Below are positions 59,836 through 62,572 of a stretch of 64,000 nucleotides of DNA, piece after piece. The position numbers and the translations under genes were made by a program. The stretch is from positions 124,001-188,000 of the forward strand of contig NZ_QAJP01000002.1 in assembly GCF_003852535.1 (NCBI RefSeq). Direction: 5' to 3'. This DNA is from Herminiimonas sp. KBW02 (GTDB lineage: Bacteria > Pseudomonadota > Gammaproteobacteria > Burkholderiales > Burkholderiaceae_D). Numbering within the stretch: the first letter of the stretch is position 1; the number at the start of each line of letters is the position of its first letter. The notes below the pieces were generated by a model, which searched no databases, was not told where the DNA came from, and saw only the letters and a list, made by a program, of their open reading frames with translations.

Positions 59836-61206
59836 CTACTCATGTTCGCGCACGCGATTCAACGCTTCATCTATCCGCTCTACGCCGATGATGGTCAGGC
59901 CTTCTATCTTTTGCTTGGGCGCATTCGATTTCGGAATCAACGCAAGTGAGAAGCCCAGCTTCGCAGCTTCACGCAAACGTTCCTGACCGCGTGGTGCAGG
60001 ACGTATTTCACCCGCCAGCCCCACTTCACCAAACACGACCAGACCTCGCGGCAAAGGGCGGCTGCGCATGGAGGAATGTATCGCCAGCAGCACGGCCAGA
60101 TCAGCCGCCGGCTCCGTGATCTTCACGCCACCTACTGCATTGATGAATACATCCTGATCGAAGGCTGCAATACCTGCGTGTCTATGTAGCACCGCCAGCA
60201 ACATCGCCAGGCGATTTTGTTCCAGTCCGACTGAAAGGCGGCGTGCATTCGGCAAATGTGAAGTGTCGACCAAAGCCTGGATCTCGACCAGCAAGGGACG
60301 TGTGCCTTCCTGCGTCACCATCACGCAGGCTCCAGGCACGGGATTATCGTGTTGCGACAGGAATAGCGCGGAAGGATTCGATACGCCCTTCAAGCCTTTC
60401 TCCGTCATGGCAAACACACCCAGTTCATTGACTGCGCCGAAACGGTTCTTGATCGCCCGCACCAGACGGAAGCTGGAATGCGTATCGCCTTCGAAATAGA
60501 GCACGGTATCGACGATGTGTTCAAGTACACGCGGGCCGGCCAGTGCGCCTTCTTTGGTGACATGCCCAACCATGATGATGGTGATACCGGTTTGCTTGGC
60601 GATGCGCGTCAACTGCGCCGCGCATTCGCGCACCTGTGCAACCGAACCGGGGGCCGAACTCAATGCATCTGAATAGACGGTCTGGATGGAATCGATGACA
60701 GCAACATCAGGTTTGTGTTCAGCCAAAGTCGTCAGAATTTTTTCCAGCTGGATCTCGGCCTGCAGTTTCAAATCCTTGGCATCCACCGCCAGCCGCTTGG
60801 CCCGCAACGCGATTTGCGCGCCTGATTCTTCGCCACTGACATACAAAACTTTTTTGATACGCGAAAGATTCGCCAGCGCCTGCAACAACAGCGTTGATTT
60901 ACCGATACCAGGATCACCACCGATCAGCACGACACCGCCGGCCACCAGGCCGCCGCCCAGCACGCGATCGAATTCCTCTATGCCGGTACCAAAGCGCGGC
61001 ACATCAATCGCTTCAATATCAGCCAGGCTCAGTACGGGCGCAGTTTGCGCCAGCCCCTGATGTTGCACGGAAAAGCGGTTAGAGCCCGATTCGACGATGG
61101 TTTCGACCAGCGTATTCCAGGCGCCGCAGGCCGGGCATTGTCCGCCCCACTTACTGGTAATGCCGCCGCAGTCGCTACAGGTGTAATTGGTTTTGGCTTT
61201 TGCCAT
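59836..61206 (-). CDS. radA: DNA repair protein RadA (Sms)
   Basis: RecA-like helicase in branch migration of recombination. The 456-aa protein has a zinc finger C10/C13/C24/C27 (CSDCGG...CPAC), Walker A GGDPGIGKSTLLLQ, the KNRFG motif (AIKNRFGAVNELG), and a Lon-like C-terminal domain. The ATG at 61206 is chosen since the frame upstream is open to 61410 through the inserted element. The ribosome site is weak and only 20 bp separate the start from the element. Confidence 0.95.
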   Translation of the reverse strand: MAKAKTNYTCSDCGGITSKWGGQCPACGAWNTLVETIVESGSNRFSVQHQGLAQTAPVLSLADIEAIDVPRFGTGIEEFDRVLGGGLVAGGVVLIGGDPGIGKSTLLLQALANLSRIKKVLYVSGEESGAQIALRAKRLAVDAKDLKLQAEIQLEKILTTLAEHKPDVAVIDSIQTVYSDALSSAPGSVAQVRECAAQLTRIAKQTGITIIMVGHVTKEGALAGPRVLEHIVDTVLYFEGDTHSSFRLVRAIKNRFGAVNELGVFAMTEKGLKGVSNPSALFLSQHDNPVPGACVMVTQEGTRPLLVEIQALVDTSHLPNARRLSVGLEQNRLAMLLAVLHRHAGIAAFDQDVFINAVGGVKITEPAADLAVLLAIHSSMRSRPLPRGLVVFGEVGLAGEIRPAPRGQERLREAAKLGFSLALIPKSNAPKQKIEGLTIIGVERIDEALNRVREHE

Positions 61207-61226
61207 CTGGATAAATTTCGCTTTAT

Positions 61227-61495
61227 TAGAACTCATTTCACAAATATCCGCGAGTGCGAACGCGGCTATTTGGGAGGTAGTGCAAGGCGTGTCGCGCGGC
61301 CAAGGGTGGTCCCCTTGGCAAGCGGCGCAACGCAGCAATACGCCCAAATAGCCCGTTCCCTTCGGGTTCTTACCAAAAGCGGCGCTGGCCGCGTTGTGCT
61401 CCTTGCGCATAGACCACTATGCGACGCGTCGCACGCCTTACCAGCACCGCTTTTGGTAAGAACGCATCTCACGGATATTTGTGAAATGAGTTCTA
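61227..61495. mobile_element. 269-bp element with 28-bp terminal inverted repeats (MITE-like)
   Basis: Ends TAGAACTCATTTCAC... at 61227-61254 and its inverted copy at 61468-61495 (27 of 28 match). Inside are two further perfect inverted repeats: GGCTATTTGGG/CCCAAATAGCC (61264-61353) and TTCTTACCAAAAGCGG with its complement (61367-61382/61447-61462). A small stem CGCATAG-ACCA-CTATGCG is at 61406-61423. No transposase. The alr stop codon TAG is in the right terminal repeat. It sits between alr and radA. Confidence 0.85.
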
Positions 61496-62572
61496 GTTAA
61501 CTTCGACTACCTTCACGCGCGACGCCAGGCCGCACATCAACTCATAGCCTACGGTACCGGCTGCATTTGCCACTTCGTCTATCGGCAAGCCTGCGCCCCA
61601 CAAGGTGACTTTGCTGCCTACACGCGGCTTCGCCACCGGCGTCAGATCTACCGTGATCATATCCATGGATACACGTCCAACCATACGCGTCTTCATACCA
61701 TCGACAATCACTGGTGTGCCGCTAGGCGCATGACGGGGATAGCCATCAGCATAACCACATGCAACCACACCTATGGTCATAGGACCAGTCGCGACGAAAG
61801 CACTGCCATAACCGACCGCGTCGCCGGCTACGATATGCTGCACACCGATGATTTCGCTGCTCAGACTCATCGCTGGCCGCAAGCCGAACTGCTCTGCGCT
61901 TTGCCCGCCTGGTGTCGCGCCATACAGCATGATGCCGGGACGTATCCAGTCCGCCGCCGAACCTGGGTGTAATAAATCAGTCGCCGAATTGGCCATGCTT
62001 TGTTCGCCCGGCAAATCGCGGGTCGCTTCCCTGAAGCGGCGCAACTGCTCCTGCACCGGCAATACCGGGTTGTCCGGATCTTCCGCGTTGGCGAAGTGCG
62101 TGACAAAAGAAATATGGTCTACTGCCGGAATAGCGCGCAGGCGCTCGTAAGCCGCCCGATATTTCGCTGGCGTAAAGCCGAGTCTATTCATCCCGCTATT
62201 CAGTTTCAGATGAACGTCGATTTTCGTCTGTAAACGTGCCTGCTCCAGCATCGTCAACTGTTCTTCGCAGTGTATGACGGTATCCAGCTGATACTCAGCC
62301 AGCAGTTGCGGATCGGAAGCATCAAAGAATCCTTCCAGCAACAGGATGCGTTTGTTCCAGCCGAGTTCACGCAAGCGCGCCGCTGCATCCAGTTCTATCA
62401 ATCCCAGTCCGTCCGCTGCGGCAAAGCCACGCATGCCGCGCTCCAGCCCGTGCCCGTAAGCATTAGCTTTCACTACCGCCCATGCCCTGGAATGTGGCGC
62501 ACGTGCTTTGGCCAGCGCAAGATTACTGCGCAATGCGGCGATATCTATGGTAGCAATAAGGGGTCTGGGCAT
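61493..62572 (-). CDS. alr: alanine racemase
   Basis: PLP enzyme making D-alanine for peptidoglycan. The 359-aa sequence has the PLP lysine K35 in AVVKANAYGHG, the catalytic Tyr in VGYGSAF, and VSMDMITVDL. Length is standard. The reading frame ends VVEVN just at the repeat, and its TAG stop is contributed by the element. It is divergent from lplT. Confidence 0.96.
   Translation of the reverse strand: MPRPLIATIDIAALRSNLALAKARAPHSRAWAVVKANAYGHGLERGMRGFAAADGLGLIELDAAARLRELGWNKRILLLEGFFDASDPQLLAEYQLDTVIHCEEQLTMLEQARLQTKIDVHLKLNSGMNRLGFTPAKYRAAYERLRAIPAVDHISFVTHFANAEDPDNPVLPVQEQLRRFREATRDLPGEQSMANSATDLLHPGSAADWIRPGIMLYGATPGGQSAEQFGLRPAMSLSSEIIGVQHIVAGDAVGYGSAFVATGPMTIGVVACGYADGYPRHAPSGTPVIVDGMKTRMVGRVSMDMITVDLTPVAKPRVGSKVTLWGAGLPIDEVANAAGTVGYELMCGLASRVKVVEVN

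Follow-up and report, generated by a model that had tools for sequence, protein, structure and literature searches.

A MITE-type element between alr and radA of Herminiimonas sp. KBW02 contains a conserved hairpin core that recurs between unlike ends in Pseudomonadota

The 269-bp sequence at positions 61227-61495 of the window (the whole 64,000-nucleotide stretch of Herminiimonas sp. KBW02 DNA that was analysed), between alr and radA, is very probably a non-autonomous transposable element of the MITE type, a judgement that concerns its identity and mode of movement and not a role as RNA. Its interior consists of two inverted copies of a ~74-nt hairpin module around a CCC(TNC/GNA)GGG mini-hairpin. 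As an element it is of a known kind, while its shared core appears to be new: a TA-flanked, gene-less, IS-matched repeat is known as a MITE, and the apparently new part is the conserved core common to elements with unlike ends. The accessible parts of the literature, mostly outside subscription journals and including PMC2229807, PMC2267715, PMC4853749 and PMC10969869, contained no account of this core that we recognised. The features are as follows.

61227..61495, no strand: whole element, MITE-type, TA at both ends (nine full-length copies in its own genome; 35 aligned copies whose flanks differ; empty sites at other copies)
61226..61228, no strand: T-TA target context at the left end (Y-TA-R preference in 34 copies)
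61227..61257, + strand: left terminal inverted repeat, helix 1 (pairs with the right end; 19 of its 20 outer letters are those of the IS in G014)
61258..61358, + strand: arm A, a long hairpin (consensus helices 2-5, many two-sided changes)
61272..61345, + strand: conserved hairpin module, copy A, sense on + (89.1 bits with model R1, of which it is itself a seed)
61359..61365, no strand: paired part of the central mini-hairpin CCCTTCGGG between the arms (helix 6; linker of the CCC(TNC or GNA)GGG type)
61366..61463, + strand: arm B, a long hairpin (second inverted repeat pair; helices 7-10)
61380..61450, - strand: conserved hairpin module, copy B, sense on -, inverted relative of copy A (70.3 bits with R1, also a seed)
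61464..61495, - strand: right terminal inverted repeat, whose outermost TAG is the alr stop codon (pairing, alr frame, aligned copies)

The flanking genes are co-directional. alr occupies 61493-62572 on the minus strand and its frame stops on the element's own terminal TAG, while the likely radA start, CAT at 61204-61206 on the minus strand, lies 20 bp from the element; an earlier reading made from the sequence alone was thus right that the right end supplies the alr stop codon and right about the distance to radA. It was also right that there is no transposase gene inside, judged by ORF length: the longest ORF fully within the element (ATG, GTG or TTG starts) has 68 aa. The outer inverted repeat (61222-61254 and 61468-61500) is 91% identical over 33 nt and a second (61366-61388 and 61441-61463) 96% over 23 nt. 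The element is unique in the window, where its end sequence (up to two mismatches) was found solely at its two ends. In a genome of the same genus that lacks the element here (G001), the same alr codon reads TAA by eye, so the position of the stop is not new, and insertion at its TA would give TAG. An element that enters a stop codon at its TA would restore a stop. Among 26 copies (20 full copies and six solos; 52 boundaries), seven have an ORF of at least 98 codons that stops on the terminal TAG (L001, L036, L038, L025, L026, L013 and L018); the other two frames gave 5 of 104 such ORF stops at element boundaries.

The window's own genome (G000, 3.64 Mb in 16 contigs) contains nine full-length copies of 94-100% identity, two partial copies (184 and 147 positions) and many end-only matches. 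Of 100 genomes searched as relatives, 16, own included, match the element at E<=0.001. Full copies of 89-98% identity are present in three genomes of the same genus (G001, G002 and G005), one full copy of 89% in G039, and full-length copies of 68-76% in G035 and G037; the remaining nine have partial or short matches. No match to the window element was found in plasmid and phage collections. When 35 full copies were aligned end to end, their flanks differed (L053 is the orthologue of the window copy, L001), and all of them start with TAG and end with CTA or are one change away. The nine full copies, the boundaries of the aligned copies and a fold far beyond shuffles establish the proposed 269-bp stretch and its boundaries as real. 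In the 34 copies other than L053, TA is preceded by C or T in 29 and followed by G or A in 28.

We searched for empty sites by joining the flanks of 14 G000 sites (eight full copies and six solos; L008 was left out) at one TA and searching 12 genomes of the genus. Of the 20 relative stretches read, 11 show one TA where the flanks meet, in many cases next to minor differences in length; the clearest case is G005 against copy L005, ATGGGGC[TA]GTGTAACG. The other nine stretches lack a single TA: AA or TG is present in four of them, another four show a deletion or different letters, and a related solo palindrome occupies the last. Since the empty sites of sister species have one TA, the target duplication is TA, and a 2-bp TA duplication is the simplest reading. 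A 4-bp YTAR duplication was rejected, the fourth base differing between the sides in four of the seven G037 copies read. The numerous copies at different sites, the single-TA empty sites and an IS with nearly the same ends (see below) sustain the suggestion of a mobilised non-autonomous element made in the sequence-only reading.

Palindromes of 38-60 bp that consist of the ends only, with TA at both sides, occur in the own genome (L012-L014 and L016-L018) and as L048 and L105. Solo L016/L105 is orthologous in G005, and solo L018 is absent at that site in G005 and G002. Most simply, the 38-60-bp solos would be deletions between the AGAAC repeats that flank the core, an event that would explain the 38-bp kind. 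L048 (G002), in which two end palindromes lie 2.6 kb apart, was considered as a composite transposon and rejected, as each place has its own end sequence; no transposase-like frame was seen by eye between the two.

At the alr-radA site itself, Herminiimonas contaminans (G005) carries the element in the same orientation (L053), G002 retains only a short footprint with both end tips left (L253), and G001 has no element. Given the G005 element and the G002 footprint, the insertion probably predates the divergence of G000, G002 and G005. The elements of G000 and G005 differ at 9 of 269 positions and their flanks at 40 of 444 (P=0.003), a slower divergence that could reflect constraint or copying among copies. 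Such copying may explain it, because L001 is nearer to L002 (four changes) than to its orthologue (nine). The orthologue has also lost one letter of the AGGCG motif and one linker C, and the site is therefore not strictly constrained. Since sister species offer an orthologous copy, a copy lost by deletion and a site without the element, this locus is a natural experiment on insertion into an operon.

A search with the end sequence in 13 genomes, for which all 75 sites in G037 were listed, gave in that genome 21 pairs at the spacing of the passenger, 11 at 859 bp and one at 167 bp; the seven passenger-spaced copies that were read are near-identical. An 857-859-bp IS in G037 and G014 has ends nearly like those of the passenger, and the two have only their ends in common. 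Its transposase is a single intact frame of 267 aa in L069, which scores 211.2 bits against the IS5 transposase model NF033580 (cut-off 110) and also matches DUF4096 and DDE_Tnp_1. In L068 it is split into two overlapping frames (111.2 and 116.6 bits), and the G035 element L070 has an in-frame stop. This IS is a putative member of the IS427 group, judged by its TA target, size and split frame. Mobilisation of the family by an IS5 transposase appears well supported by the shared ends. A search of nine genomes with the L069 protein at E<=1e-20 gave matches in G014, G035 and G037 and none in G000, G001, G002, G005, G039 or G292, and no pair at IS spacing was found among the 40 end sites of G000. 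With neither a transposase match nor an IS-sized end pair there, the element now looks orphaned in the window's genome.

IS5_3 transposases were sought in 16 genomes, nearly all with other end types, and five matched at E<=1e-10 (18 loci). None of the 13 loci tested carries the tested MITE ends. One locus, L234 in G072, has an IS5-like transposase in two pieces and inverted repeats TCTTAGAAGCTGTTTTAAAAAATC unlike the tested passenger ends of that genome. Because partners of the other end types were not found, it is the ends themselves that suggest that one core may use many transposases.

Both strands of the element, which the sequence-only reading had proposed to fold, are far more stable than expected. 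One strand folds at -162.2 kcal/mol against a shuffle mean of -91.3 (z -14.4) and the other at -172.9 kcal/mol against -93.5 (z -16.9), with none of 200 dinucleotide shuffles as stable on either strand; the whole window element is slightly more stable on the minus strand. The nested inverted repeats described earlier were borne out, namely the outer 33-nt pair, the 23-nt pair and the 11-bp arm GGCTATTTGGG/CCCAAATAGCC, which is part of the predicted fold. The nested fold therefore stands, but the junction is predicted to be four-way (outer stem, arm A, mini-hairpin CCCTTCGGG, arm B) and not three-way as first thought. An alignment of 31 distinct copies (A1) gave a consensus structure of 103 pairs, in which 98.0% of 3181 cells are paired against 90.5% in shuffled alignments. 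Compensatory changes, sought as had been suggested, are abundant: 45 of the 103 pairs are changed on both sides, against 21.1 in shuffled and 5-9 in slid controls, and cells with two-sided changes number 194 against 37.1 and 7-25, the structure having been derived from A1 itself, which favours it over the slid controls. The two-sided changes are far outside both controls. A local structure found as a single copy, at this locus only and with no compensatory changes, the outcome that had been named as speaking against an element, failed on each count. Template switching, in which one hairpin arm is copied from the other, can also produce covariation in the absence of selection on RNA. No match to Rfam 15 at gathering score was found in 19 loci, and the single match of the window scores well under its own threshold (E 0.53).

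Arm A and arm B, the latter read as its reverse complement, follow one common plan, P1-[WA]G[GC]-P2-[GCR]-P3-loop-P3'-[AA]-P2'-[AA]C[RNN]-P1', with internal loops WA-G-GC / AA-C-RNN between P1 and P2 and GCR/AA between P2 and P3. The plan is visible in most of 20 modules folded singly and is less clear in some, for example those of L083 and L032. Model R1, built from an alignment of 16 modules (A2) that come from TAGAAC elements and from elements with other ends, detects modules in elements whose ends are quite different. R1 E-values are rough, and the weakest of the following matches may be chance. The model has matches in 138 of 300 genomes of the order (E<=1e-3; 71 of 135 genera), in 79 of the 369 genomes that sample the class (1e-6; three in the own order and 76 outside it) and in 31 of the 299 that sample the phylum (1e-7; six in the own order, seven elsewhere in the class and 18 in other classes). 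One exact pattern scan (15 stretches) gave as carriers Herminiimonas, Collimonas, Herbaspirillum, a Gallionellaceae bacterium and a Burkholderiaceae bacterium. A plasmid of Azotobacter chroococcum also carries the module, and viral contigs gave no match to one exact module pattern.

The modules are enclosed by inverted repeats (score of at least 13) in 30 of 37 loci, with none found in the other seven, and the enclosed span is 266-280 bp in 26 of the 30. At least eight types of end can be told apart by eye, several of them with a GRGCCT-like start, and R1 found the convergent pair of modules between still other ends in five of nine class loci and all three phylum loci. Counted over the best 150 of 172 R1 matches (96 sources) and six loci added by hand, adjacent modules are convergent in 59 cases, divergent in none and on the same strand in four, and 37 loci have one module among the best 150 matches. 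In 52 of the 59 distinct convergent pairs the linker is CCC(TNC or GNA)GGG or has one C/T or G/A stem variant; read with the longer module first, 31 of the 59 have a TNC loop and 21 a GNA loop. Some arm modules contain an extra nested double-hairpin, seen by eye as about GCAGGGAATTCG-palindrome-CCTGCGCAAC-palindrome-GCGCCCTGCAAGG (L074, L076, L079, L080, L081, L049 and L065, the last with other ends).

The pairing within P2 differs between the strands. When the AGGCG and CAAC-type anchors were used to set its register, 127 of the 141 distinct modules were readable, and their 762 cells comprise 559 Watson-Crick, 72 G.T, 5 A.C and 126 other, the geometry of P2 having been taken from sense-strand RNA folds, a possible lean. 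In 37 non-redundant modules the counts are 26 G.T and 2 A.C (14 and 1 in A-like, 11 and 0 in B-like modules). P3 in its own register shows no strand bias (5 G.T and 5 A.C; 9 and 74 when counted out of step, in the register of P2), nor do the end repeats (10 and 8). The G.T/A.C counts of arms A and B (71/7 and 43/13) are not taken as evidence, because they rest on a structure predicted for the + strand, which favours G.T. When folded as RNA, the sense strand is the better one in 118 of the 141 modules; among the 45 non-redundant modules it is so in 35 (P=1.9e-5), with four long modules leaning the opposite way, 1 to 3. That G.T is tolerated in P2 and A.C hardly at all points to a fold of one strand, and we prefer a strand-specific module fold to a symmetric cruciform. 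By itself the linker does not distinguish RNA from DNA, because one strand has a UNCG RNA loop and the other a GNA DNA loop, and the UNCG RNA tetraloop and the GNA DNA loop are both very stable. RNA is our first choice, since both inverted modules keep the bias and transcription in either direction gives one sense module. We therefore propose, tentatively, that the fold may act as RNA in read-through transcripts. The earlier suggestion of a structured RNA under selection thus gains from the covariation and from the G.T excess in one stem; the RNA role itself is what we infer. The recurrence of the folded core with unlike ends suggests that it may be useful to bacteria.

The mechanism that we propose has two parts. 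An IS5-family transposase made elsewhere would recognise the ~20-bp ends and insert the element at Y-TA-R sites in either orientation. The interior would be a conserved device, two inverted hairpin modules around a mini-hairpin, and not a shrunken transposase gene, with selection keeping the one-strand fold of each module. As the modules are inverted, a transcript from either side would have one sense module, so that the element would work either way round. The folded core would be expected to protect, process or insulate the transcript and could make operon insertions, here that between alr and radA, tolerable. A point against this proposal is that no promoter-like site was found in 61100-61650.

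It is rather unlikely, in our view, that the core instead works as folded single-stranded DNA or as an extruded hairpin in transposition or replication, where it would unite the ends or recruit a host factor and be selected only for spreading. Its retention with many unlike end types is as expected if it aided spreading, and the linker is CCC-GNA-GGG on one strand or the other, GNA being a DNA mini-hairpin loop. An excess of G.T over A.C is expected of DNA pairing as well; in DNA, too, G.T pairs better than A.C. To our knowledge, however, IS5-family DDE transposases do not require a folded interior, and a cruciform would expose both strands alike, whereas P2 is strand-biased. We consider it improbable that the core has no function and is an ancient passenger whose nested palindromes correct themselves by template switching, so that mutation keeps the pairing. 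The unpaired WAGGC and AAC and the linker loop are conserved with unlike ends, where template switching fails, and it leaves the G.T excess of P2 over A.C unexplained; on the other side, quasi-palindrome correction is a known mutation process, and end pairs 15-289 and 16-288 vary among the copies and are in part unmatched. Least probable is that the host has recruited the element as a bidirectional terminator or for transcript stability, in the manner of Correia/NEMIS, for although the element lies between co-directional genes, is orthologous in two species, and RNase III is reported to act on Correia/NEMIS RNA in the part of PMC2229807 available to us, the two terminator-like sites in 61100-61650 (0.7 expected) have 5-pair stems only, and with only a footprint in G002 and no element in G001 hosts evidently manage without it.

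A wider reading, which we put forward as a possibility, is that a class of ~270-bp selfish elements extends across Pseudomonadota, in which a single-strand fold that is conserved and modular has repeatedly been joined to the ends of different ISs. The fold would comprise two inverted modules and a UNCG/GNA mini-hairpin, and in some cases further modules nested inside. They would be an RNA or single-stranded DNA chassis that changes transposases, and not a decayed IS. MITEs are usually regarded as remnants of ISs in which the interior is irrelevant. Here the interior is the conserved part, the module and a near-constant size recurring with unlike ends in many genera. This makes testable a long-standing question, whether non-autonomous elements need a functional core at the RNA or DNA level, and R1 allows such elements to be annotated across Pseudomonadota.

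Among known systems, REP and ERIC resemble the element, by description, as dispersed intergenic palindromes. The CIR repeats of Caulobacter likewise have two hairpin arms joined by a linker; in the accessible part of their description (PMC2229807) they are set apart by a length of ~110 bp, GANTC and the lack of end-to-end pairing. The Correia (NEMIS, CREE) repeats of Neisseria share the TA ends and the small folded form. The Correia copy L251 (Neisseria gonorrhoeae NZ_CP119142.1) has two AGGCG motifs like the anchors of the module, both on the same strand, whereas the modules of the element are inverted. The ends differ, TATAGTGG-type ends being absent from the element, and R1 gave no match to L251 at E<=10. 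Correia repeats were rejected as relatives, since the model does not match; the anchor motifs, chosen after inspection, look alike, and two or more such motifs occurred in 9 of 5000 simple shuffles. Two N. gonorrhoeae records labelled as plasmids are 2.17 Mb long and are probably chromosomes.

The IS5-family IS of G037 and G014, 857-859 bp long, is alike in having nearly the same ~20-bp ends and TA at the site. The element has the terminal inverted repeats, the dispersed copies at unrelated sites, the TA duplication and the absence of an internal transposase gene that mark a MITE, and in G037 and G014 it shares its ends with an autonomous element; in G000 no autonomous partner was found, although the usual definition does not ask for one in the same genome. 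Bacterial MITEs, as far as the available part of a review describes them (PMC10969869), are alike in terminal inverted repeats, target duplication, lack of a transposase, several copies and a stable hairpin. That part gives MITEs as typically AT-rich, in contrast to the GC-rich modules here (0.69 and 0.68 GC), and the element further differs from the MITEs that it describes in having a core that is common to elements with unlike ends and is not derived from the partner IS.
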